DNA of 64,000 nt from Solidesulfovibrio magneticus RS-1. GTDB taxonomy: Bacteria > Desulfobacterota > Desulfovibrionia > Desulfovibrionales > Desulfovibrionaceae. Under the pieces are notes generated by a model that ran no database searches, had not been told where the DNA came from, and worked only from the letters and a program-made list of their open reading frames with translations. The DNA is taken from the NCBI RefSeq assembly GCF_000010665.1, contig NC_012796.1, positions 3,191,501 through 3,255,500 of the forward strand, given 5' to 3'. The stretch's first letter is position 1; every line of letters begins with the position of its first letter. Shown here in pieces: positions 40,261 through 51,693 of the stretch. Both the position numbers and the translations under genes were made by a program.

Positions 40261-41163
40261 TCAGCCCATTTCCACCCGGTCTCGGCCCAGGCCCTTGGCC
40301 GCGTACAGGGCGTTGTCGACCCTGGCCAGGAGAGTTACGGCCGACTCCCCCGCCCGGGCCTCGGCCACGCCGAAGCTGCAGGTCAGACGCCCCACTCCCG
40401 TCAGGTCGAGACCGGCCACGGCCAGACGCAGCTTCTCGGCCAGGACGCAAGCCTCGGCCAGCCCCAGGCCGGAACAGCAGATGAGGAATTCCTCGCCGCC
40501 CCAACGCCCCACGCCCAGCCCAGCGGGCACGGTCTGACGCAGCAGATCGGCCAGGGCGCGCAGCACGTCGTCGCCGCGCAGATGCCCGTACCGGTCGTTG
40601 ACGGCCTTGAAGTGGTCGATGTCGAACATGATGAGACTCAGCTGCCGCCCCTGCCGGCCCAGCTCGCCAAGGCCGGCCAGCAGCAGATGTTCGGTGTGCT
40701 GGCGGTTGGCCAGTCCGGTGAGCATGTCGGTGGTGGACAGGCGGGCCAGTTCGATGTTGGTGAGCGCCAGCCGCGCATGGGCCTCGGCCAACCGGTTCTG
40801 GGTGTCCTTGAGTTCGGAGATGTCGACGCCGATGGCGTAGCGCACCACCCGGCCGTCGGGCCAGGTCATGGCCCGGACCTGCATCTGATACCAGCGGTCG
40901 TCGGACTCGTTGAAGTGCTCAAAGACCCGGGTCTCGCCGCTGGGCAGGCCCTGGGGCGTGAGCAGTTCGCCCAGGCGGCACCAGGGACAGGGCTCGGCCC
41001 GCTCGTAAAGGGCCTCGTGGCACACTTTGCCGGCATGATGGCCGAAATGCTCGTAAAAGGCCCGATTGCTGTAGACGATGCGGTAGCTGGCGGCGTCCAC
41101 CACGTAGATGCCGAAGGGAATGAGATCGAAATGGCTCTCGAAAAGGGCGTTTTCCATCATCAC
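40261..41163 (-). CDS. PAS-GGDEF diguanylate cyclase
   Basis: 300 residues, soluble. A PAS domain (~8-125) carries the cysteine cluster Cys48-x10-Cys59-x2-Cys62 (VCHEALYERAEPCPWC), followed by a coiled linker (KDTQNRLAEAHARLALTNIELARLS) and a GGDEF domain (~140-298) with active motif RWGGEEFLI and the TDMLTGLANRQH opening. It should make cyclic di-GMP. The PAS domain and linker are close paralogues of those in the adjacent kinase gene, with which it overlaps by 4 bp. It is the last gene of a five-gene signalling operon. Confidence 0.9.
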   Translation of the reverse strand: MMMENALFESHFDLIPFGIYVVDAASYRIVYSNRAFYEHFGHHAGKVCHEALYERAEPCPWCRLGELLTPQGLPSGETRVFEHFNESDDRWYQMQVRAMTWPDGRVVRYAIGVDISELKDTQNRLAEAHARLALTNIELARLSTTDMLTGLANRQHTEHLLLAGLGELGRQGRQLSLIMFDIDHFKAVNDRYGHLRGDDVLRALADLLRQTVPAGLGVGRWGGEEFLICCSGLGLAEACVLAEKLRLAVAGLDLTGVGRLTCSFGVAEARAGESAVTLLARVDNALYAAKGLGRDRVEMG

Positions 41164-42314
41164 GAGGCGGCTCCGCTGCGGGGCAGGGTCACAATCACGG
41201 CGGTGCGGCCAGGTACGTCGGCGTCGAGTTCGATGGTCCCGCCATGGGCCTTGGCGGCCAGGGCGGCGGAATAGGCCCCAAGGCCGGTGCCGGAACGTTT
41301 GCCCATGGTGACGTACTTGTCAAACATGTGGTCACGGATGGCGGCGGGCACTTCTCCCTGGTTGCGCACCACCAGGGCCACGTTCTCTTCTCCTACGACA
41401 ACATCCACTTCCACGTCGCCGCCCTCGGGCGAAGCCTCAAGGCCATTGACCACAAGATTTTGGAGCATCGGCCCCAAGAGCAGGTCGTCGCCGGGAACTT
41501 CCACCCGGGCCCCGGCCGGAACCGGGCCCCCGGCCAGGGCGGCATGCAGCTTTCGCCCCCGGGCCATGGGCATGGAAGACAGCCGGGAACAGGTGCGAAC
41601 GGCCAGATCGACCAGATCCACCGGCCGGGGAGACAGCACGAACTCGCCGATTTCCAGCCGGTAGAGCACCAGGGACTGGTTGAGCATGTCGAGCATGGAA
41701 TGGGCAGCCTGCTCCATGAGCGACACGATGTGGGCCGCCTCGGGGGGCAGGTCGTAGTTTTCGAGCAGCACCTGGGGCAGGCCGATGAGCGCGGACAACG
41801 GCGCTTTGAGGTCGTGGCGGGCGATGCGGTCCACGTGTTCGCGCAGGTCCATGTTCTGGCGCAGCATCGTGTTCTGCCCGGCCAGCTCCTTGTTGCGGAT
41901 GGCCAGCTCCGCATGGGCTTCGGCCAGACGGTTCTGGGTCTCCTTGAGTTCGGAGATGTCCACGGCGATGGCGTACTTGACCACCCGGCCGTCGGGCCAG
42001 CCCATGGCCTTTTCCTGGATCTGGGCCCAGCGTTCGTCGCGTTCGTTGTAGAGGTCGTAGACGGCGGTGCGGCCGTTTGGCAGGCCGGCCGCAGTGATCA
42101 GCTCCGGGATGCGGCAATGCAGGCAGGGCGCGTCGTTGTCATAGACCACCTTGTAGCACTTGCCCCCCTCGGCCGGGCCAAGGTTCTCCCGGGAGTGGCG
42201 GTTGAGGAAGACCACCTCGTAGGTGGCCACGTCCACGACGTAGATGCCGAAGGGAATGACGTCGAAATGCGTCTTTAACAGCGCGCTTTCGAGCATGGAG
42301 GCGCTTTGCATCAC
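41160..42314 (-). CDS. PAS histidine kinase with cysteine-cluster PAS domain
   Basis: 384 residues, soluble. The PAS domain (~12-130) has Cys53-x10-Cys64-x2-Cys67 (CYKVVYDNDAPCLHC) in the same layout as the downstream PAS-GGDEF protein. A coiled linker (KETQNRLAEAHAELAIRNKELAG) leads to HisKA (RIARHDLKAPLSALIGLP) and HATPase_c (MLQNLVVNGLEASP, NQGEVPAAIRDHMFDKYVT, GTGLGAYSAALAAKAHGG). It overlaps the receiver gene upstream (42311-42314) and the GGDEF gene downstream by 4 bp each, so all three are coupled. Its partner is probably the small receiver next door. Confidence 0.9.
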   Translation of the reverse strand: MMQSASMLESALLKTHFDVIPFGIYVVDVATYEVVFLNRHSRENLGPAEGGKCYKVVYDNDAPCLHCRIPELITAAGLPNGRTAVYDLYNERDERWAQIQEKAMGWPDGRVVKYAIAVDISELKETQNRLAEAHAELAIRNKELAGQNTMLRQNMDLREHVDRIARHDLKAPLSALIGLPQVLLENYDLPPEAAHIVSLMEQAAHSMLDMLNQSLVLYRLEIGEFVLSPRPVDLVDLAVRTCSRLSSMPMARGRKLHAALAGGPVPAGARVEVPGDDLLLGPMLQNLVVNGLEASPEGGDVEVDVVVGEENVALVVRNQGEVPAAIRDHMFDKYVTMGKRSGTGLGAYSAALAAKAHGGTIELDADVPGRTAVIVTLPRSGAAS

Positions 42315-42685
42315 AAGTATTTCGCCGCCACCGTTTCCAGGGTCTCGGCCAGTTTTTCCTGTTTGACGGGCTTTAAGATATAGCCCTTGGCCCCGGCCTC
42401 TATAGCGTCCATGACCATCTGCTCCTGGCCGTGGGAGGTGACGATGACGATGCAGGCCCCGGGATGCACGGCCAGAATGCGGCGGGTGGCCTCAATGCCG
42501 TCCATATCGGGCATGGTGATGTCCATGGTGGTGACGTCGGGAGCGGCCTCGGCGTAGACGTCCACGGCCTGCTGGCCGGTGGAGGCCATGGCGACGACGT
42601 GATGTCCGAGTTCTTCCAGGAGCTTGGCCATTTTCTTCACGGTGAGGCCGGAGTCGTCCACCACCAGGATTCGCAGGGATCTCAT
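42311..42685 (-). CDS. CheY-like single-domain response regulator
   Basis: 124 residues, receiver only: acidic pair RILVVDDSGLTVKKM, acceptor Asp in VTTMDITMPDMDGIE, the Thr/Ser switch in IVIVTSHGQ and Lys in YILKPVKQEKL. With no output domain it must act by protein contact or as a phosphate shuttle. It is 3 bp downstream of a CheX-like gene and overlaps the PAS kinase. The natural reading is that the CheA-like kinase of this operon, and perhaps the PAS kinase, phosphorylate it and CheX dephosphorylates it. Confidence 0.93.
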   Translation of the reverse strand: MRSLRILVVDDSGLTVKKMAKLLEELGHHVVAMASTGQQAVDVYAEAAPDVTTMDITMPDMDGIEATRRILAVHPGACIVIVTSHGQEQMVMDAIEAGAKGYILKPVKQEKLAETLETVAAKYL

Positions 42686-42688
42686 GCC

Positions 42689-43210
42689 TTACTCCTTCAC
42701 ATATTCAAGGGCGTCGTCAAAGAGTTCGCCCGGACCGATGAGGTGGATGGCCAGGGAACCGGTCGCGGCGGCGAGTTCGGCCGAGGCGAATTTGGCCCCG
42801 CGGTGGCGCATCACGGATTTGGCTTCGGTGAGGATAATGGGCGGCGACAGGGCAATGGCCCGGCCGGTGGCGGCCACGTCGGCCAGGGCGTTGCCCACGA
42901 TGATGTTGATGATGTCGCCGGCGGTTTCCTGGATGGCGTCGTCGCGTTCGTCCTCGGCGATGTCGAGGTCGGCGGTGTAGGCGGCAAAGGCCGCCTCGAT
43001 AAGGGCCGCGTCGAAGCTGTAGGCCAGATAGAGCTTGAGCTGCCCGGTGGCGCTCAAAATGGCGGTCAGATGGCGCAGGTCGAGCTTTTGCACATCGTCG
43101 AAGTGGTACAGGGGTTCCTTGACGGCTATGCCCAGTTCCTCGGCGAAAAACGCCCGGGTGCGCGTGGCCAGGGCGTCGAGGAAGGCTTTGAGATCCAGTT
43201 GTTCGGTCAT
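42689..43210 (-). CDS. CheX-like CheY phosphatase
   Basis: 173 residues. The core helix DAIQETAGDIINIIVGNALADV and the following SPPIILTEAK resemble CheX, a phosphatase that dephosphorylates CheY. CheX/CheC use an ExxN motif on this helix; here the aligned positions read Asp99-x-x-Asn102, with Glu95 one turn earlier, so the active pair may be altered. A longer N-terminal part than CheX (~45 residues: MTEQLDLKAFLDALATRTRAFF) precedes it. It lies between the CheA-like sensor kinase and the CheY-like receiver. Confidence 0.78.
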   Translation of the reverse strand: MTEQLDLKAFLDALATRTRAFFAEELGIAVKEPLYHFDDVQKLDLRHLTAILSATGQLKLYLAYSFDAALIEAAFAAYTADLDIAEDERDDAIQETAGDIINIIVGNALADVAATGRAIALSPPIILTEAKSVMRHRGAKFASAELAAATGSLAIHLIGPGELFDDALEYVKE

Positions 43211-43231
43211 AACGTCTCCCGAAAGTAAAAC

Positions 43232-46200
43232 TTAGGCGTCAAGGAGGGGAACTTCGACGCGAAGGCGCGAACCGCGCCCGGGTTCACTGATCAATACGGC
43301 CGCCCCGCCCAGGTGCTGGGCCTCGGCCCGCACGGCGGCCAGCCCCACGCCGCGCCCGGAGAGTTCTCCGACGCTGCGGCGCGAGGAAAATCCGTCGCGG
43401 AAAAGCAGTTCGATCACGGCGGCGTCGTCCATGGCGGCCAGTTCCTCGGCACCGACCAGGCCGACCTCGAAGGCCCGGGAACGCACGCCTTCCACGTCCA
43501 CGCCCCGGCCGTCGTCGGCCACCTCGATGACCAGCCGGCCGTTTTCGGCCGCGACCCGGCAGTTGATGATCCCGGCTTCGTCCTTGCCTGCCTCGGCCCG
43601 CTCGGCTGGTGTTTCCAGGCCGTGGTCCACGGCGTTGCGAAAGGCGTGGACCAAGGCCTTGGCCAAGGCGTCCAGGCGGTCGGGATCGACGGCCACGGCC
43701 TCGCCTTCCACGGCAAAGGGAGCCAGGAGCTTACCCTGGCCGGCGGCCAGGCGGGCGGCCAGACGCGGGTAGGCGGCCAGCAACTTTTTCACGTCCACAT
43801 GGCGCAAGGTGCGGGCAGCGGCCAACACCGTACGGTCCTGCTCGCCGAGCGGCAGATCGTCCAAGCGCGAAAGCAGCCGGTCGGCCAGTTCGGCCAGGGC
43901 CTCGGCCAGATCCGCGCCCAGGCAGATTTCGCCCCGGCGATCGAAAAACTCCTCGCCCAGGGCGTTTCGCACCACGGCGATGTCCCGGTTAAGCGCCTCG
44001 TCCACCTCGGGATCGGCCAGTGCCTCGGCCACGGTCGAAGCCTGGGGGGCATCCTCTCGGGCCAGACCAGCCAGACGCGTTTCCACGGCATCCAGAGCGG
44101 CCGCGACATGGGCGCATTCCAGCTGCAAAAATAAGCCCTTGAAGGTGTGCACCTGCCGATAAACGGATTCCAGGGCAGCACGGCCGTCGGCGGCGCTGGA
44201 AACGAAGACCTGTCCTGATTCCCGGAATCCGGCGAAGCTGTCAAGGACGGCGAAAAAGTCGCGCTGCTCCCGCACCGCCGCCACTACGCAGGCCAGGCGG
44301 TTGCGCTCCCGGGCCACGGCGTCCTTGAGGCGCGCCTCGTCGGTGACGTCGGTGATGACGAACATAAGCCGCCCCCCGTCCAAGGCGCGGTAGGCCAGGC
44401 GCAGGGCGCGTCCGCCAAGCTGAGCGGACTTTTGCATGAGCGACAGATACAGGTCGCGGCGATAGGCGTCTGCCTCGTCGGCCACCCGCCGGATGTTGAC
44501 GGCCAAGGCCTCCCTGGCGGCCGGGTCATCCGGGAAAAGCAGCTCGACGACGTTTCGACCCTCAATGTCGCCGCCGAAAATCGTCCGGCACTCCTGGCTG
44601 CACCGAGGCCCGACCAAGCCGTTGCGGTCCACCGACAAGAACCCCTGGCCGGCGTTGTCGAGCAGCGCGGCCATGTCCCGGTTGGCGACGTCGAGCGCCT
44701 CGTGGGCCTGGCGGATGGCCCGGTTGAGCCGGGCAAGCTTGCGGTTCCACCAGACGATGACGGCCAGGACGGCGGCGGCGATGGCCAGGGCCTTCCAGAA
44801 CCGGGTGTAGTCAAAGCTTTCCTCGAAGGTGACGGCCACCCACTTCTTGATGATCGCCTCGGTTTCAGCCTTGGTGAGGGTGTTGACGGCCTTTTGGAAC
44901 AGCGAGGCCAATTCCGGTTCGTCGTCGCGGCTGGCCACGGCCAGGTCGAGCTGAGCGTCGAGGCGGCCGGCGATCTTGAGATCGCTGAAGTGGTCCTTGG
45001 CGATGGCCTGGCTGATGGCCGGAACGGTGTCGATGTAGCCGTAGAGCTTGCCGTCGGCCACAAGACGCAGGCCCTCGGTGACGCTTGGCACCTCGACCAG
45101 CCGCATTTCCGGGTACTTGGAACGCAGGATGTCCAGGCTGGAGTAGCCGTTGACCACGCCCAGATCCTTGCCGGACAGTCCGGCCGGATCGTCGATGAAG
45201 GGCGTCTTGGCCAGGGTGGCCACCACCATGGGGAAGCGCAGGTAGGGCGTGGTGAAATGGAGGAAACGCCGCCGCTGCTTGGTGTCGCCGGCGGCCGGCA
45301 GGAAATCGCAGCGATGCTCACGCACGGCGGACAGGCTCTGGCTCCAGGAGCTGGTGGGCACCAGGACCACGGGCACGCCCAGGCGCTCGCTCATAAGGCC
45401 CAGCAGATCGGCGGCGATGCCGACGTGGCGGCCGTTTTCGTCGATGCGCTCGATGGGGGCCCAGTCCGGGTCCACGCAAAAGGACAGGGCTTTTTTGCGG
45501 GCCAGATAGTCTTTTTCCCGATCCGTGAAGGTCAGCCCCGTGTGCGTGTCGGCCGGCTTGCCCATGACCTCGGCCACGGCCTCGCCAGCCTGGGCTCCGG
45601 CCTTGTACAGCGGCAGCCAGCGGGAGAGCAGCGCGGCCTTTTCCGATTCCGTCACCGATTCATGGGCTTTTTGCAGAATGGACGCCAGCAGCGGCCAGTC
45701 GTTGCGCACCAGGGAATATATCTTGAACTGATAGTCCAGCAGTCCGGAAATCTTGACGTTGGCCAGCCCCGACTTGCGGATGGCGTAGGAAGCCACGGCC
45801 ATGTTCTCCACGGCGGCGTCGGCCTTGTGGGTGGCCACCAGCGACAGGGCGGCATAGGGGTCGGCGGTCTCGACGAGCTCCAGGCCCGGGGCCTTTTCGC
45901 GCAGGTACTCCTCGGCCGTGGAGCCCCGGGCCACGGCCACGCGCTTGCCGGCCAGGGTCTCCAGGGACCAGGCCGCGGCGTCGTCCCGGGCGGCCACGGC
46001 CAGGGGGAACTGCCAGTAAGGGCCGGCGAAAAGCGCGTAGGTGGCGCGGTCGGCGGTCTTGCCGGTGCCGTCCACCAGATCGATGCGTTTGTCGCGCAGG
46101 GCATCCAGGACGAGCTGAAAATCCAGCCCGTCGCCCAGGATCTGGAACCGGAAGGCCAGGCCCGTGCGCTGGGCGATAAGGGCATAATAGTCGTGAAAAA

Positions 46201-46426
46201 GGCCCTGCTGCCGGCCGTCGGCCACGATGGACAGCGGCGGCCAGTCCACGTCGCTGACCGTGACCACGGGATGGGCCTCGATGAAGGCTTTTTCCTCGGG
46301 CGTCAGGTCCAGGGCCGCAGCCCAAGCGCCCGCTCCCCCGAAAACAACCAGTGCGGCAAGGACGGCCACAAGCCGCCAGACAAAGGACGCACGCAAAAAA
46401 CGCATCATGCAGACCCCGTTGTTCAT
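43232..46426 (-). CDS. CheA-like sensor kinase with two periplasmic solute-binding domains
   Basis: 1064 residues. A signal/anchor (~8-37) is followed by two bacterial extracellular solute-binding family 3 domains in tandem (~48-272: HPVVTVSDVDWPPLSIVADG; ~305-535: LSFCVDPDWAPIERIDENGRHVG). Then come a membrane helix (~543-560), a PAS-like domain (~578-700), an HPt domain (His760 in YRQVHTFKGLFLQLE) and a CheA-type ATPase at the C-terminus (HAFRNAVDHGLETPAERAEAGK, VADDGRGVD, GRGVGLAAVRAEAQHLGG). No HisKA dimerisation helix and no CheW-like domain are present. It probably phosphorylates its own HPt and then the CheY-like receiver in response to a periplasmic small ligand. Starts at 46426 or at Met codons 46408/46405 are all possible. 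Confidence 0.88.
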   Translation of the reverse strand: MNNGVCMMRFLRASFVWRLVAVLAALVVFGGAGAWAAALDLTPEEKAFIEAHPVVTVSDVDWPPLSIVADGRQQGLFHDYYALIAQRTGLAFRFQILGDGLDFQLVLDALRDKRIDLVDGTGKTADRATYALFAGPYWQFPLAVAARDDAAAWSLETLAGKRVAVARGSTAEEYLREKAPGLELVETADPYAALSLVATHKADAAVENMAVASYAIRKSGLANVKISGLLDYQFKIYSLVRNDWPLLASILQKAHESVTESEKAALLSRWLPLYKAGAQAGEAVAEVMGKPADTHTGLTFTDREKDYLARKKALSFCVDPDWAPIERIDENGRHVGIAADLLGLMSERLGVPVVLVPTSSWSQSLSAVREHRCDFLPAAGDTKQRRRFLHFTTPYLRFPMVVATLAKTPFIDDPAGLSGKDLGVVNGYSSLDILRSKYPEMRLVEVPSVTEGLRLVADGKLYGYIDTVPAISQAIAKDHFSDLKIAGRLDAQLDLAVASRDDEPELASLFQKAVNTLTKAETEAIIKKWVAVTFEESFDYTRFWKALAIAAAVLAVIVWWNRKLARLNRAIRQAHEALDVANRDMAALLDNAGQGFLSVDRNGLVGPRCSQECRTIFGGDIEGRNVVELLFPDDPAAREALAVNIRRVADEADAYRRDLYLSLMQKSAQLGGRALRLAYRALDGGRLMFVITDVTDEARLKDAVARERNRLACVVAAVREQRDFFAVLDSFAGFRESGQVFVSSAADGRAALESVYRQVHTFKGLFLQLECAHVAAALDAVETRLAGLAREDAPQASTVAEALADPEVDEALNRDIAVVRNALGEEFFDRRGEICLGADLAEALAELADRLLSRLDDLPLGEQDRTVLAAARTLRHVDVKKLLAAYPRLAARLAAGQGKLLAPFAVEGEAVAVDPDRLDALAKALVHAFRNAVDHGLETPAERAEAGKDEAGIINCRVAAENGRLVIEVADDGRGVDVEGVRSRAFEVGLVGAEELAAMDDAAVIELLFRDGFSSRRSVGELSGRGVGLAAVRAEAQHLGGAAVLISEPGRGSRLRVEVPLLDA

Positions 46427-46478: not shown

Positions 46479-47336
46479 CTATTCGCTCCCAGGCGAGACC
46501 TCAAGGGCAATGGCGTGACGCAGGCGCGCGGCGGCCGCGGCGCCCCGGAAGGAACCGGTAACCGGCGCGGCGTCGTCGGGATGGGGGGCGGCGGCCAGGA
46601 CCACGTGACGGTCGGTGACGGCCAGGCCCAGGGAAGGATCGAAGCCGCGCCAGCCGCCGCCGGGCAGATAGGCCTCGGCCCAGGCATGCAGATCGCGCTC
46701 GTCGCTGTCCGGGTCGCCTTCGTGGTAGCCGCTGACGAACCGGGCCGGGATGCCGACATGGCGGCAGGCGGCGATGAAGACCAGGGCCAGATCGCGGCAG
46801 GCCCCTTTCCTCCTGGCCAGGACCGTGTCCGGAGCCATGAGGCCTGGCTCCAGGCGGGCGGAGGTGGCCAGCCGGGCGTGCATCCGACCAAGCAGCTCCA
46901 TGGCGAAGGTCTGGGGCGTGGTCGCGCCGTCGGCCAGGATGCCCTCGGCCAGTTCAGCTGTCCGGGAGGCGGCCCCGGCCACCGGCGCCAGGCAGTCCCC
47001 GGCCAGCCAGGCCTCGCCCGGCGCGAGGGGCACGGGCAGCACGGCCCGGGGCGTTTCGATGAGATAGTCGAAGGGGTTGTCGCGAAGGGTCGCCACCGTC
47101 GTTTCGGTGGTCACGGTCAGATGGTCGGTGAGGCCGGAAAACCAGACCGACAGGGCGGTGTTGCCCCAGGCGTCGGTGACGAACGTCCGGCCGGCCGGTT
47201 CGGGCTTGATGACGGCGGCAAAGGCCAGCAGCCGCTGGGCGGCGTCGCCCCGGGGCACCAGGCGCAGCAGGTGCGGCTCCAGAAAGACCTCGCGCCCGTA
47301 ATCATAACGGGTGCGGTGAACGATGCGGCAGCGCAC
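46479..47336 (-). CDS. Transglutaminase-like cysteine protease of the Anbu cluster
   Basis: 285 residues. An N-terminal beta-rich domain (RIVHRTRYDYGREVFLEPHLLRLVPR, ~1-100) is followed by a transglutaminase-like domain with the full triad: Cys180 (RRKGACRDLALVFIAACR), His217 (DERDLHAWAEAYL) and Asp233 (GWRGFDPSLG). Such enzymes act as peptidases or amidases. It starts 4 bp after the Anbu gene stop and closes a four-gene unit (ATP-grasp, alpha-E, Anbu, this gene) that recurs in many bacteria. Confidence 0.9.
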   Translation of the reverse strand: MRCRIVHRTRYDYGREVFLEPHLLRLVPRGDAAQRLLAFAAVIKPEPAGRTFVTDAWGNTALSVWFSGLTDHLTVTTETTVATLRDNPFDYLIETPRAVLPVPLAPGEAWLAGDCLAPVAGAASRTAELAEGILADGATTPQTFAMELLGRMHARLATSARLEPGLMAPDTVLARRKGACRDLALVFIAACRHVGIPARFVSGYHEGDPDSDERDLHAWAEAYLPGGGWRGFDPSLGLAVTDRHVVLAAAPHPDDAAPVTGSFRGAAAAARLRHAIALEVSPGSE

Positions 47337-47340
47337 GGGG

Positions 47341-48105
47341 TCAGGCCGGTTCGGTCAGGCAGCCGGACTTCCCGCACACCTTTTTGAGCTTGGAAGCCAC
47401 GTTGTCGATCCACTCCGAGGGCAGGTCGTGGACCAGGCCGCGCAGATGCTCCTGCCACCAGGCCGAGATGTCGGCCAGGTCTTCTTTTTCGTAGCGGTGC
47501 TGGACCAGCTCCAGGCCGCTTTTGTGGTAGAGCACCACGTCGATGGGAAAATCCACGTCCGAGGCGCTGATGCGGGTGGAGTCAAAGGCCAGGCAGCCGA
47601 CCTTGAGGGCCATGCGCAGCGGATCGGAGTATTTGAGCGTACGGTCGAGGACGGGCTTGCCGTAGCCGCCTTCGCCGATGATGTGGTAGGGCGTGCCCTG
47701 GCTCACCTCCACCCAGTTGCCCTCGGGGTAGATCAGATAGAGCTTGTGGGTGGAATCGTTGGTCATCTGGCCGCCAAGGAGCACATGGAGATTGAACCCC
47801 AGCCCCGACTCGGCCAGAAAGGCCTTGTCCTCGACGGCGACCTTGCGCAGTTCGGCGGCAAAGGCGTTGACGACCTTGTAGAGCTTGTCGAGGGGCTTGG
47901 CGCAGGTTTCCATGGCCTCTTCGAAATAGGTGAGCGTCTTGTCGCGCACCGAGCGAAGCCCCGAGGTCATGAGGAAAAAGGCCCCCTGCCCGTTCTGATA
48001 GGTGGTGACCTTGTGGGCGCTGGTCAATTCGTTGCCGGAGGTGATGCGGGTGTCGGCGATGCCGACCAAGCCTTCCTCCACGGTGATGCCGAGGCAAAAT
48101 GTCAT
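47341..48105 (-). CDS. Anbu-type proteasome-like peptidase
   Basis: 254 residues. The start MTFCLGITVEEGLVGIADTRITSG is diagnostic: after removal of Met, Thr becomes residue 1, Asp17 follows in GIADTR, and a Lys lies in TSAHKVTTY near position 31-33. This is the N-terminal nucleophile layout of proteasome beta subunits and HslV. Length and the C-terminal helices match Anbu (ancestral beta subunit), which forms an open helical ring without a known unfoldase. The start is placed at Met 48105 because the nucleophile Thr must directly follow it. The gene cluster is typical of Anbu. Confidence 0.92.
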   Translation of the reverse strand: MTFCLGITVEEGLVGIADTRITSGNELTSAHKVTTYQNGQGAFFLMTSGLRSVRDKTLTYFEEAMETCAKPLDKLYKVVNAFAAELRKVAVEDKAFLAESGLGFNLHVLLGGQMTNDSTHKLYLIYPEGNWVEVSQGTPYHIIGEGGYGKPVLDRTLKYSDPLRMALKVGCLAFDSTRISASDVDFPIDVVLYHKSGLELVQHRYEKEDLADISAWWQEHLRGLVHDLPSEWIDNVASKLKKVCGKSGCLTEPA

Positions 48106-48118
48106 GGCCGTCCCTTTG

Positions 48119-49093
48119 TCACTGTTGGCTGGCCCCGTCAATAGCCGGAAACGTGGAGAAGAAGGTGGCGAAAACAGCCTCGTCCACACGGTTCATGCGG
48201 GTTTGCAGGTTGTCGGTGAACTCATGCAAGCCCTTGGCCACAACGTCTTCCACGCTCATATAGGCCAGGTCGCCGCACAGCTGGCCGATGCGTTTTTCGG
48301 CCGGATTGGCGAAATAGCCCATGGGCGTGCCGGTGATGGCGTGCAGGCACTGCTGGGCTCGTATCAGCGACCACAGGACCGACCGGGGAAAGTCGTGGTC
48401 GAGCAGCAAGAATTCCACGATGCGCTCGGGCTGGATGCGCCCATGGCGGCGGCGGTAGGCCTCCAGGGCGCTGATGGCCTTTAACAGCGCCGCCCACTGC
48501 ACGTAGTCGAGGTTGGAGCCGACGTCGGTGGGGTGCGGCAGCAGGATGAAGTATTTGACGTCGAGGATGCGCGAGGTCTTGTCGGCGCGTTCCAGCAGCC
48601 TGCCCAGGCGGAAGAAGTCCCAGGCCTCGTCGTGGCTCATGGCGTCGCCGGCGATGCCGCTTATCGTCAGGTCGCGGCGCTTGACCTCGTCGCAGAAGTG
48701 GTAGGGGTTGTTGAGCACGGCGTCGCAGCCCTTGGCCGCCTCGCGCACGAGATGGTAAAACGTGTTGATCTGCTCCCACATCTCGGTGGGGATGATCTCG
48801 CGGATGGTGCGGGCGTTGTCCCGGGCCCGGCCCAGGCAGCTCACGATGGAGTTGGGGTACTCCGGATCGAAGGCCAGGAAGCGGATGATGGTCTCGCGGT
48901 CCCCGGGCAACTCCCGGGCGGCGAACAGGTCAAAGTCGCCCATGGCCGAGACCAGCGGCATCCACTGCTCGCCGCGCCCGCCCGGGGTGTCCAGGGTGAG
49001 GTGCCAGTTGACGTCGAGGAACCGGGCGATGTTCTCGGCCCGCTCCAAATAGCGGCTCATCCAGTAAATGGCGTCGGCCACGCGGCTTAACAT
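48119..49093 (-). CDS. Alpha-E domain protein of the Anbu cluster
   Basis: 324 residues, all-helical. The opening MLSRVADAIYWMSRYLERAENIARFLDVN is the signature of the alpha-E (formerly DUF403) family, repeated in part as FFRLGRLLERADKTSRILDVKYF. ATG 49093 is preceded by AAGGAG; an open frame extends 10 codons further. These proteins are encoded next to the circularly permuted ATP-grasp enzyme and probably work with it; no activity is established. The gene lies between the ATP-grasp gene (30 bp upstream) and Anbu (13 bp downstream). Confidence 0.92.
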   Translation of the reverse strand: MLSRVADAIYWMSRYLERAENIARFLDVNWHLTLDTPGGRGEQWMPLVSAMGDFDLFAARELPGDRETIIRFLAFDPEYPNSIVSCLGRARDNARTIREIIPTEMWEQINTFYHLVREAAKGCDAVLNNPYHFCDEVKRRDLTISGIAGDAMSHDEAWDFFRLGRLLERADKTSRILDVKYFILLPHPTDVGSNLDYVQWAALLKAISALEAYRRRHGRIQPERIVEFLLLDHDFPRSVLWSLIRAQQCLHAITGTPMGYFANPAEKRIGQLCGDLAYMSVEDVVAKGLHEFTDNLQTRMNRVDEAVFATFFSTFPAIDGASQQ

Positions 49094-49123
49094 GCGGCGC
49101 TCCTTGAAATTATAGCCATACAA

Positions 49124-50587
49124 CTACCCTCTGGCCGCAGCGCCCGGACCCAGCACCCAGGTGTCCTTGCTGCCGCCGCCCTGGGAGGAATTGACCACCA
49201 GCGACCCGCGCCGCAGCGCCACCCGGGTCAGGCCGCCGGGAATCACCCGGATGTCGTCGCCGTAGAGGATGTAGGGTCGCAGATCGACGTGGCGGCCCTC
49301 GAAGTGGTCGTCCACGATGACCGGGGCCCGCGACAGGCTGACTGTGGGCTGGGCGATGTAGTTGCGCGGATCGGCCTCGATCTTGGCGGCAAAGGCCTCG
49401 CGCTCCTCGGGGGTGGCCGCCGGCCCGACCAGCATGCCGTAGCCGCCGGATTCCGCCGCCGCCTTGACCACCATCGTGTCGAGGTTAGCCAGCACGTGCT
49501 TTCTGGCCTTGTCCTCCCAGCACAAGAACGTCTCGACGTTGTCGATGAGCGGCTCCTCGCCCAGGTAGTAGCGGATCATGCGCGGCACGTAGGCATACAC
49601 TACCTTGTCGTCGGCCACGCCCGTGCCCGGGGCGTTGGCCATGGCCACCCGGCCGGCCTTGTAGACCTCCATGATGCCGGGCACGCCCAAAAGCGAATCA
49701 GGACGGAAGACCTGCGGATCGAGGAAATCCTCGCCCACCCGGCGGTAGAGCACGTCCACCCGCTTGAGGCCCTTGGTGGTGCGCATGTGGACGTAGCCAT
49801 CGGCCACGACCAGATCGCGGCCCTCGACCAGCTCGATGCCGGCCTGCTGGGCCAGGAAGGTGTGCTCAAAATAGGCCGAGTTGTAGACGCCGGGAGTGAG
49901 CAGCGCGGCCGTGGGCCGGTTGGCCGCCTGAGGCGCGATGGCGTGGAGCATGTCGAGGAGTAGCGGCGCGTAGTCGTCCACGGGCCGGATGTCAATGGCC
50001 TCGAAGACCTGGGGGAAGGTGCGCTTCAGGATGCGCCGGTTGGCCAGGACGTAGGACACGCCCGACGGACAGCGCAGATTGTCTTCGAGCACCATGAACC
50101 GGCCGGACTCGTCGCGGATGAGGTCCGAGCCGGTAATGTGGCACCACACCCCATGCGGCGGATTAAGCCCCTGGCACTCCTTGAAATAGCCCGAAGACGA
50201 CTCCACCACGACGCGCGGCACCACGCCGTCGGCCATGATGCGCCCTTTGTGGTAGACGTCGTCGATAAACAGGTTCAGCGCCCGGATGCGCTGGATAAGC
50301 CCGCGCTCCAGGGCGTCCCACTCGGCGGCCTCGATGATGCGGGGGATGATGTCGAAGGGAAAGATCTTCTCGGTCCCCTCCTCGTGGCCGTAGACGGTAA
50401 AGGTGATGCCCATGTCGTAAAAGGCCTGCTCGGCGGCGGCCTGCCTGGCCAGGATCTCGCCCGGCGGCAGGGAGGCGATCTTGTCATGGAGCATCCGGCA
50501 GCCGGGGCGGGGCTGGCCGTCGGGGGTGAACATCTCGTCGAAAAAGGGGCCGACGTCGTAGCTGTCGAAGTCCATCTTCGGTGGCAT
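49124..50587 (-). CDS. Circularly permuted ATP-grasp ligase of the Anbu cluster
   Basis: 487 residues. The first part (YDVGPFFDEMFTPDGQPRPGCR, then FDIIPRIIEAAEWDALERGLIQRIRALNLFIDDVYH) and ESSSGYFKECQGLNPPHGVWCHITGSDLIRDESG plus VLEDNLRCPSGVSYVLANRR are hallmarks of the circularly permuted ATP-grasp family. The Lys-containing ATP-binding segment MVVKAAAESGGYGMLVG comes near the C-terminus, as expected for the permutation. ATP-grasp enzymes form amide or peptide-like bonds. Start ATG 50587 follows AAGG. First gene of the four-gene Anbu operon; divergent from the gene at 50758. Confidence 0.93.
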   Translation of the reverse strand: MPPKMDFDSYDVGPFFDEMFTPDGQPRPGCRMLHDKIASLPPGEILARQAAAEQAFYDMGITFTVYGHEEGTEKIFPFDIIPRIIEAAEWDALERGLIQRIRALNLFIDDVYHKGRIMADGVVPRVVVESSSGYFKECQGLNPPHGVWCHITGSDLIRDESGRFMVLEDNLRCPSGVSYVLANRRILKRTFPQVFEAIDIRPVDDYAPLLLDMLHAIAPQAANRPTAALLTPGVYNSAYFEHTFLAQQAGIELVEGRDLVVADGYVHMRTTKGLKRVDVLYRRVGEDFLDPQVFRPDSLLGVPGIMEVYKAGRVAMANAPGTGVADDKVVYAYVPRMIRYYLGEEPLIDNVETFLCWEDKARKHVLANLDTMVVKAAAESGGYGMLVGPAATPEEREAFAAKIEADPRNYIAQPTVSLSRAPVIVDDHFEGRHVDLRPYILYGDDIRVIPGGLTRVALRRGSLVVNSSQGGGSKDTWVLGPGAAARG

Positions 50588-50666
50588 GGGCAAGCCTTGT
50601 CGCCGCTTCGGCGGCCGGGTAACACAGGTGTCGGTCGGGGTCTTTCCGCCTTGGCCCGCCACGGAT

Positions 50667-50697
50667 TTGAGCGTTCCAATTACGGAATTTGTTAATA
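50667..50697 (+). promoter_or_regulatory. AT-rich divergent promoter region
   Basis: The 170-bp gap between the ATP-grasp gene and the divergent gene at 50758 has one AT-rich core. On the plus strand TTGAGC (50667-50672) and TGTTAA/TTAATA (50690-50697) are possible promoter elements. Promoters for both directions are expected here, but spacing is not decisive. Confidence 0.3.
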
Positions 50698-50757
50698 ATA
50701 TTCCATACCGCCTGTCAATCGCCCTTCTGCGTCGCGACAGGCAAGACAGGAAAAAAC

Positions 50758-51693
50758 ATGCCTTCCCACGCCATCGCCCAGCTCGCCCGGGCCATTGCCG
50801 ACATCCTTGAAAGGGGTCTTCCCCAGGACGAAGCCGCCCTGCACTGCATCCGCTCCACCCACGGCCAGCTGTCCCCGGCCGCCATCGCCGCCCTGGCCGC
50901 CGACGAGGACGATCCCCAAGCCGCACCGCTTTTGGAATTGCTCCTCTTCCCGGGCCGGGCCACCGCCCTGGAGCTGGAAGAGGCCATGGCCCAGGCCGCC
51001 CTGGAGCCGACCGAGCTGCCGGCCCTGGCCGAAGCCCTGGCCGGGCTGGGGCCGCGTCCGACCGCCCTGCTCCCGGACGGCGAAGTCGTGCCCCTGCCGG
51101 TGCTGGAGGCCGATCAGGCGGCCCGGCTCGTGGCCCGGCTGGCCCCCCAGCGCAGCCTGCCGGCGGCGGCCCGGCAGGCCGCCCAGGCCGCCTATCCCGG
51201 CCTGGGCCGGCGTCTGGCCGCCGACGCCCGCCAGATCGGGCCGGTCTGGTCCCGGGGGGCCTTGGCCTTTTTCATCAATTGCTTGCAACGCCTGCCGGCC
51301 GTGCGCCCGGACCCGGAAAAGGCCTTGGCGGTAGCGCGATTTGTCCTGCGCTTCCTGGCCGATCTGCCGGAGAGCGCCCTGCCCCTGCCGGCGCTCATGG
51401 CCCGCCAAGCTAAGCTTGTCGCCCAACTGCGCCGGGCCAGGCTGCAAGAAGAGGCCCTGGCCAAGAGCAATTTCGAAACGCTCATTATGGCCGGCAACCG
51501 CCTGCCCTATCTCCATGCCCCGGACATCGCCGAGGAACTGGCCCTGGCCGAAGCGGCCATCCTGGCCGTCACGGGCCGGCCCGCGCCCGAGGCCGGGCCG
51601 AGTTGCCAGGACCTGGGCGCGTTTACGGAAATGGGGGATATTTTCGCCGCCCTGGACGATCAGGCGGCCGGAGAGCCGGAAGAATCGCGGTAA
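50758..51693 (+). CDS. Uncharacterised Ala/Leu-rich protein
   Basis: 311 residues, soluble, very rich in Ala, Leu, Pro and Arg, with no signal or membrane segment. ATG 50758 lies closely after AGGA. The pattern is mostly helical with repeated LPxLAEAL-like stretches (TELPALAEALAGLGPRPTAL, ARLVARLAPQRSLPAAARQA), possibly degenerate helical repeats. No catalytic motif was recognised. It is divergent from the Anbu operon and overlaps the 3' end of the minus-strand kinase gene by 34 bp. Codon usage and composition match real genes here, and the frame is clean. Confidence 0.7.
   Translation: MPSHAIAQLARAIADILERGLPQDEAALHCIRSTHGQLSPAAIAALAADEDDPQAAPLLELLLFPGRATALELEEAMAQAALEPTELPALAEALAGLGPRPTALLPDGEVVPLPVLEADQAARLVARLAPQRSLPAAARQAAQAAYPGLGRRLAADARQIGPVWSRGALAFFINCLQRLPAVRPDPEKALAVARFVLRFLADLPESALPLPALMARQAKLVAQLRRARLQEEALAKSNFETLIMAGNRLPYLHAPDIAEELALAEAAILAVTGRPAPEAGPSCQDLGAFTEMGDIFAALDDQAAGEPEESR

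Follow-up and report, generated by a model that had tools for sequence, protein, structure and literature searches.

Chemotaxis signalling normally depends on large arrays in which receptors associate with CheW and CheA, and a five-gene locus of Solidesulfovibrio magneticus RS-1 raises the question of whether such a core can also operate as a small unit that carries its own receptor. The locus lies in a 64,000-nucleotide stretch of the genome (contig NC_012796.1, positions 3,191,501 to 3,255,500 of the forward strand; hereafter the window, in whose numbering most positions are given). The original prediction, made from the letters of the window, had described an operon encoding a CheA-like kinase with two solute-binding domains, a CheX, a CheY, a PAS kinase and a PAS-GGDEF protein. 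Calling open reading frames (ORFs) within the window, we found all five in that order, all on the minus strand, between 40261 and 46408. On balance, we favour the reading that they encode a receptor-fused chemotaxis core independent of the receptor array, with phosphorylated CheY (CheY~P) acting through the PAS kinase and the cyclase.

43232-46408, minus strand: receptor-kinase (gene 1), with an alternative ATG start at 46426, six codons upstream
42689-43210, minus strand: CheX gene (PF13690 match)
42311-42685, minus strand: CheY gene (PF00072 match)
41160-42314, minus strand: gene 4, a PAS-HisKA-HATPase histidine kinase (Pfam; PAS by similarity to gene 5)
40261-41163, minus strand: gene 5, a PAS-GGDEF diguanylate cyclase (Pfam PF00990, PAS_8 and PAS_4)

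The genes are tightly packed, with spacings of 21, 3, -4 and -4 bp from the kinase to gene 5, so that both of the 4-bp overlaps predicted among the last three genes were recovered. Across 14 orthologous loci, the aligned coding parts lie 24-44, 5-9, -1 to 5 and -4 to 56 nt apart for the pairs A-B, B-C, C-D and D-E. A scan for promoters and terminators was uninformative, yielding no promoter-like sites and six terminators versus 5.0 in shuffled sequences.

What kind of kinase is the first product? Its domain order and conserved motifs were read from Pfam, NCBIfam and PDB matches, alignments and a predicted model, and include histidine phosphotransfer (HPt) and solute-binding protein (SBP) domains as follows.

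43232-46408, minus strand: whole receptor-kinase, in the order signal or transmembrane segment, SBP_3 domain 1, SBP_3 domain 2, transmembrane helix, PAS-like region, HPt, end of CheA P3, CheA-type ATPase (P4), stop (Pfam, NCBIfam, PDB, alignments of 18 and 13 rows, model)
44135-44152, minus strand: HPt phosphorylation motif V-H754-T-F-K-G (alignment A5)
43730-43813, minus strand: segment ahead of the ATPase that aligns with the last part of P3, the dimerisation domain of CheA (alignment to CheA structures 6s1k and 4xiv)
43340-43648, minus strand: CheA-type ATPase boxes HAFRNAVDHG (N), DDGRG (G1) and SGRGVGL (G2) (alignments, profile)

The two tandem solute-binding domains of the original prediction are present, with Pfam SBP_bac_3 matching in two stretches (E value 1e-34) ahead of a membrane helix that lies at about residues 536-556 by eye and at 534-562 in the predicted model. 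By sequence, the closest PDB entry to this half is BvgS (4q0c, E 1e-32), and the closest to the ATPase half is CheA. A fold search with the model ranked the periplasmic structures of BvgS and EvgS first and also matched CheA P3P4 structures; the model has a mean predicted local distance difference test (pLDDT) score of 78 and a predicted template modelling (pTM) score of 0.33, and its domain packing is unreliable. The CheA-type ATPase was borne out by several routes. Pfam HATPase_c matched at 5e-14, the NCBIfam CheA model was the best NCBIfam match (1e-49, below its whole-protein cut-off), the model matched CheA P4 structures in the fold search, and a profile built from 13 relatives aligned the ATPase and the end of P3 to CheA structures with E values down to 2e-54. 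In the ATPase boxes, most positions (H921, R924, N925, H929, G930; G967, G969; G1018-L1023) are invariant across 24 selected rows.

The claim of an HPt and a PAS domain fared unevenly. A predicted HPt domain in this kinase family is well supported, because relatives match Pfam Hpt (at E 0.01, 8 of the 13 family cores do so, the best with 3e-9) and the 13-relative profile matches the HPt structure of Thermotoga maritima CheA, 1tqg (E 5e-6). H754, T755, K757 and G758 are invariant in 24 selected rows of alignment A5, as are N585 and G589-S592 ahead of the HPt, and a helix bundle surrounds H754 in the predicted model. The model also gives residues of about 588-687 a mixed strand-helix, PAS-like secondary structure, and we term this region PAS-like. 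No PAS structure was among the 50 best hits of the fold search, and the lone Pfam support for a PAS in the core was a weak PAS_4 match in the relative L078 (E 0.002, below cut-off); Pfam PAS matches in L062, L063 and L100 were rejected as support, their positions lying ahead of the core.

The kinase was also predicted to have neither a HisKA nor a CheW domain, a match to either having been named beforehand as evidence against the interpretation. HisKA, CheW and H-kinase_dim gave no match in the window kinase at E values up to 1 in Pfam, and the two CheAs of the same genome, used as a control, matched Hpt, H-kinase_dim, HATPase_c and CheW. CheW/P5 was likewise not matched in the window kinase (Pfam, NCBIfam) or in the 13 family cores, and no P2 domain was found in the window kinase. 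Of P3, only the end aligns by sequence, with the model superposing on the P3P4 construct 4xiv over 249 columns at a root-mean-square deviation of 8.7. The tail after the ATPase measures 1-34 residues in 33 kinase rows versus 134-304 residues in 23 CheA rows. An ordinary CheA was therefore rejected, given the missing CheW domain and the end of the protein right after the ATPase, and a BvgS-type kinase was rejected for want of a HisKA match at E up to 1. As judged from its domains, the protein is CheA-like, and it is not filed as a CheA because the CheW feature failed.

The predicted single-domain receiver was confirmed as CheY-like, with a PF00072 match (E 8e-30), a phospho-acceptor D55, switch T83 and K105, the residues D10, D11, D55, T83 and K105 invariant in 14 rows, and chemotaxis CheYs (6er7 and T. 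maritima 1tmy) as its best PDB matches. CheYs linked to the gene set elsewhere are 50-99% identical to it; other receivers matched in the fetched loci reach about 39%.

The predicted CheX matched PF13690 (E 1.3e-11) and the CheX fold. Its model has a pLDDT of 89.7, and the first fold matches were the CheX structures 3h4y and 3hm4 (Foldseek E 5e-12, template modelling score about 0.7). One position of its active-site helix departs from the canonical protein.

42905-42928, minus strand: CheX active-site helix ETAGDIIN, with D99 where canonical CheX has E, and N102 conserved

In a HMMER alignment to Borrelia CheX (3hzh), the catalytic E stands opposite D99 and the N opposite N102. This raises the alternative that the subfamily has lost phosphatase activity through the change of E to D and that its members bind CheY or act as a scaffold for it. 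Of the 25 genomes, 21 have D as the acid, all 13 Solidesulfovibrio among them, and the other four (G439, G476, G519, G577) have E, so that a fixed E-to-D replacement, which we had considered for the subfamily, was rejected on wider sampling. We regard loss of activity as improbable: D is also an acid and may still work, none of the 25 genomes has lost the N, and E95, N102, G106 and N107 of the helix are invariant in a 19-row alignment. The protein is a candidate CheY~P phosphatase as far as sequence and fold go, and its phosphatase role is putative.

The last two genes were also found to be what had been predicted, a kinase (HisKA-HATPase) and a diguanylate cyclase (PF00990 at E 3e-33 with a GGEEF site; PAS_8 and PAS_4 above cut-off). 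The HisKA of gene 4 (Pfam E 3e-7; ARHDLKAPL at residues 165-173) was absent from the earlier description.

42114-42158, minus strand: three-cysteine motif of the gene 4 PAS (C53, C64, C67; PAS alignment)
40978-41022, minus strand: three-cysteine motif of the gene 5 PAS (C48, C59, C62; PAS alignment)
40486-40527: site in gene 5 where an RxxD ahead of GGEEF is missing (motif comparison)

The PAS domains, N-terminal in both proteins, are about 57-58% identical to each other; elsewhere in the genome the gene 5 PAS has seven more matches at E 1e-3, none above 31% identity. Their three cysteines are invariant in all 35 aligned PAS domains (16 from gene 4, 19 from gene 5), and we infer that this PAS may have a redox, metal or cofactor role. 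The GGEEF active site is kept in 19 of 19 gene 5 sequences. An RxxD five residues ahead of it, which we take to be the product-inhibition site of diguanylate cyclases, occurs in 0 of 11 Solidesulfovibrio sequences versus 8 of 8 from outside that genus, in a comparison that left out L043 and L044; if RxxD is that site, the Solidesulfovibrio cyclase has probably lost it.

The shared PAS domain suggests another arrangement, in which one CheY serves two kinases: the kinase with SBP and HPt domains would report outside solutes and the PAS-HisKA kinase an internal cue, CheX would be their common eraser, and the PAS of the cyclase would sense the internal cue and not CheY. Besides the close similarity of the two PAS domains and their invariant cysteines, the HisKA of gene 4 fits this idea, as does the fact that the sole receiver gene beside gene 4 is the CheY. 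Gene 4 is nevertheless missing from six of the 24 clusters in which it could be judged and is not needed by the core, and we consider the arrangement as a whole unlikely. Gene 4 may feed into this CheY as an additional input.

Does the gene set hold together elsewhere? We searched for the kinase in 288 genomes of the family. Full-length relatives came from all but one of the 14 same-genus genomes (one of the 13 matches being split over two contigs, and the single miss being a 69% complete genome), from three g17 genomes and from one g35 genome. Two records of S. magneticus metagenome-assembled genomes carry kinases 95-96% identical. In the same 288 genomes the CheX alignment gave 20 matches at E 1e-6 or better, and the CheX subfamily appears well bounded, because 19 of these lie at 1.5e-48 or better and the next at 9.8e-7. 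This weak match, in G210, was not counted, as none of the five window proteins was matched in its neighbourhood. A draw of 395 genomes from the phylum gave nine CheX matches, all below 1e-50 (threshold 1e-12) and five of them outside the family. In the phylum of G666 (Vogesella), one of 239 genomes matched (G905). None did among 235 genomes of the phylum to which the Myxococcales genome G668 belongs, where the search had no positive control. With a full-core kinase profile in the 239 genomes of the G666 phylum, the matches listed included long ones in G905 (two) and G1127 (one); the others listed start at profile position 220 or later, in the HPt end or the ATPase.

The CheX subfamily thus totals 25 distinct genomes in these surveys, leaving G210 aside. 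A CheY adjoins the CheX in all 25, and a clade kinase (defined below) lies in the same cluster in 24, an association that spans six family-level lineages, five in the host phylum and G905 of another phylum. The co-occurrence that the original prediction asked for is therefore found: the five genes stand in the same order in 16 genomes (13 Solidesulfovibrio and three g17, counting G266, whose kinase lies at contig ends and whose CheY frame is apparently shifted) and are rearranged in two more, G213 and G206, the latter with another sensor on its kinase. G292 and G439 have kinase-CheX-CheY-PAS-GGDEF with gene 4 missing; G476, G519 and G577 have kinase-CheX-CheY, the G577 contig ending after CheY; and G905 has CheX-CheY-kinase. 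Of the 24 judgeable genomes (all but G577), 21 have the PAS-GGDEF gene in the cluster, the exceptions being G476, G519 and G905, and 18 have gene 4, a count that excludes the weak, generic matches to kinases in L080 and L081 (23-26% identical). That unrelated signalling genes merely fell together by chance is extremely improbable. The host genome (5.32 Mb, three contigs) has 150 HATPase_c matches, a very large kinase repertoire in which signalling genes will often lie near each other, but chance adjacency was rejected because the linkage holds in 24 of 25 genomes, spans six family-level lineages and survives rearrangement of the genes.

The kinase core also keeps its identity while its sensor changes. 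Of 33 kinase rows, 31 form one clade with support of 100/99 and with none of 23 CheA rows inside. All 33 fall into one group in only 6% of 200 bootstrap trees, and, the tree being unrooted and two distant kinases lying on long branches, we make no claim about evolutionary order, that is, whether CheA is the ancestor or the offshoot. Beside CheX and CheY, the Pfam sensors of the kinases include dCache_2-HAMP (G439, L079), dCache_3 with PAS (G206, L063), a receiver (G292, L077) and several PAS domains (G905, L100). The kinases of G577 and G519 have no known sensor domain in Pfam and directly follow [NiFe] hydrogenase subunit genes, and an H2-sensing version in these two genomes is possible. There, genes for both the small and the large hydrogenase subunit stand upstream of kinase-CheX-CheY (L078:3243-6095 and L080:12126-14633). 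Separately, two g17 genomes carry a second family kinase in tandem (L054:13919-17839 and L055:8287-12195), the L054 copy with three SBP_bac_3 domains.

Taken together, these parts suggest the following relay, whose order, from kinase to HPt to CheY with reset by CheX, is the one that the domain families imply. Small solutes, probably amino-acid-like, would bind one or both periplasmic SBP_3 domains, and the signal would cross through the membrane helix and the PAS-like region to the CheA-derived HPt-ATPase unit, which would phosphorylate its own HPt histidine, H754. From the HPt the phosphate would move on to the dedicated CheY, at D55, and the neighbouring CheX would strip it off again, giving a fast and reversible signal without linked methyl-accepting chemotaxis protein (MCP), CheW, CheR or CheB. 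CheY~P would then act via the PAS kinase and the PAS-diguanylate cyclase, which have the three-cysteine PAS in common, so that the ligand would govern cyclic di-GMP and, by way of it, motility or attachment. The sequences show the domain content, the conservation of the gene set and the swapping of sensors; we infer every phosphotransfer, the activity of CheX, the identity of the ligand and, above all, the step from CheY to the cyclase. None of MCP, CheW, CheR and CheB was found among the five genes or the five neighbours scanned, and a set acting in trans may lie elsewhere in the genome. The active-looking cyclase in 21 of 24 judgeable clusters speaks for an output in cyclic di-GMP.

A number of observations weigh against this reading, the first group of them concerning its output. 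Gene 5 encodes a GGDEF protein without a receiver domain, which sits poorly with a route from CheY~P to the cyclase. Genes 4 and 5 are accessories, dispensable in relatives, because the cyclase is missing from three clusters and gene 4 from six of 24. Every one of the 25 genomes that carry the CheX subfamily has FliM, G905 of the other phylum among them, and in G239 (L082:7442-14067) CheX, CheY and the cyclase stand at the end of a cluster of fliF, fliG and a FliI-type ATPase gene, the CheX lying 164 bp behind the ATPase gene (Pfam ATP-synt_ab, T3SS_ATPase_C). These two observations suggest that a flagellar output fits at least as well, and they tell against the part of the original prediction that had cyclic di-GMP output replacing flagella; the chemotaxis-style relay with a built-in receptor stood, with an SBP_3-fused CheA-type core, CheX and CheY conserved as a set.

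The same relay might accordingly have its CheY~P act on the flagellar motor, as an array-free form of chemotaxis in which the cyclase tunes motility in parallel. To FliM and G239 can be added that the G476 cluster adjoins a CheA with a CheW-length tail and other che-like genes (L081; the latter named by eye), that the window CheY is most like chemotaxis CheYs, and that three clusters do without the cyclase. The presence of FliM may, however, be background, as Desulfovibrio relatives are mostly flagellated; of the five neighbours scanned in the window, none is flagellar (those of other loci were not systematically scanned); and with no adaptation enzymes linked in the window, temporal gradient sensing would be hard. 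We hold a motor output in this form to be somewhat unlikely. Outputs through cyclic di-GMP and through flagella are not mutually exclusive.

The other points that tell against the receptor-fused core acting through CheY~P on the kinase and cyclase concern its parts and its sampling. In the window kinase Pfam Hpt reaches only E 0.49, below the Pfam cut-off, H-kinase_dim is not matched there or in the 13 family cores, and PAS models have no Pfam match in the window kinase or in any of those cores. The D at the acid position of CheX in most genomes is not the canonical E. The two distant kinases, L086 and L102, group with a CheA through long branches. Neither they nor five of the 31 clade kinases (L062 and L064-L067) have a CheX match in the stretch fetched; an invariable pairing of the core with CheX was rejected for this reason. 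G239 has CheX-CheY-PAS-GGDEF with no kinase of the clade, a direct search there giving only ATPase-end (CheA-type) matches, and the CheY gene of the draft genome G266 (L058:7484-7870) seems frame-shifted near its start. The counts are not independent, because 19 of the 25 genomes belong to one family, and 13 of 25 to one genus. Of the kinases without a CheX match, L062 has a HAMP-PAS sensor, and L064-L067 have the same HPt-ATPase core with a different CheY (33-39% identical) upstream.

How does the set compare with known systems? It shares with the CheA-CheY-CheX phosphorelay of T. maritima and Borrelia burgdorferi an HPt, a CheA-type ATPase, a single-domain chemotaxis-type CheY and a CheX-fold protein. 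Unlike in that relay, the kinase has its own receptor and lacks a CheW domain and Pfam P3 or P2, the operon lacks MCP, CheW, CheR and CheB genes, and the CheX mostly has D for E. The Wsp pathway, which controls cyclic di-GMP with a CheA-type kinase, an MCP, CheW proteins, CheR/CheB and a regulator joining a receiver (REC) to GGDEF, resembles the locus in having a CheA-type kinase and a GGDEF protein together, but its MCP, CheW, CheR/CheB and REC-GGDEF regulator have no counterparts among the five genes here. The tandem SBP_3 domains ahead of a membrane helix recall Venus-flytrap kinases of the BvgS, EvgS and RocS type. BvgS has a PAS and a dimerisation and histidine phosphotransfer (DHp, HisKA-type) domain (PMC5829827), in place of which the kinase here has an HPt and a CheA ATPase, with CheX and CheY as partners. 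Hk1-Rrp1 of B. burgdorferi ties SBP_3-family periplasmic sensor domains to cyclic di-GMP synthesis (PMC4013479); SBP_3-type periplasmic sensing is common to both systems, and here the link to cyclic di-GMP is a proposed one. In Borrelia the kinase, Hk1, is a hybrid that contains REC and Hpt, and its partner Rrp1 joins REC to GGDEF; the locus combines a CheA core with CheY and CheX as individual proteins, and its GGDEF protein lacks a receiver. In the literature searched, judged by titles and the starts of abstracts, and in PMC4013479, PMC10767990, PMC11784639 and PMC8396549, we found no description of the gene set, in agreement with the earlier remark that this exact set is not known as a described system. 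The parts are all known; it is their combination, a CheW-less CheA core with exchangeable sensors and its own CheX and CheY, that we did not find described there.

Directly upstream of the kinase lies a cluster on the same strand.

46479-50926, minus strand: transglutaminase-like gene, gene without a Pfam match, Alpha-E gene and circularly permuted ATP-grasp gene

The gene without a Pfam match presumably encodes a proteasome-type protease. All four genes are matched beside the kinase in each of 12 further Solidesulfovibrio kinase loci that were searched (L042-L052 and L057), and none was matched in any g17, G213 or G206 locus searched. Co-transcription with the kinase operon is possible, because the nearest upstream gene, the transglutaminase-like one, is only 70 bp from the kinase start.

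We tentatively propose, as a possibility that we would not yet call probable, that these loci form a separate class of chemotaxis-derived unit, found in six family-level lineages of two phyla. Its CheA core would be array-free, would take exchangeable sensors (SBP, Cache, PAS, receiver and perhaps a hydrogenase that acts as a sensor) and would in most cases come with a CheX and a CheY of its own; the core kinases that have no CheX in the stretch fetched make such a class somewhat less likely. If such a class exists, it would be a natural minimal relay in which a stand-alone receptor kinase informs motility and cyclic di-GMP of solutes or H2. Given that the core seemingly works fused to a receptor, it would offer a small natural system in which to ask what the array adds, and its CheX subfamily with D for E would be a test of the catalytic requirements of CheX. 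The system also bears on how CheA became, or stopped being, bound to arrays, and on how one core is rewired to many sensors.

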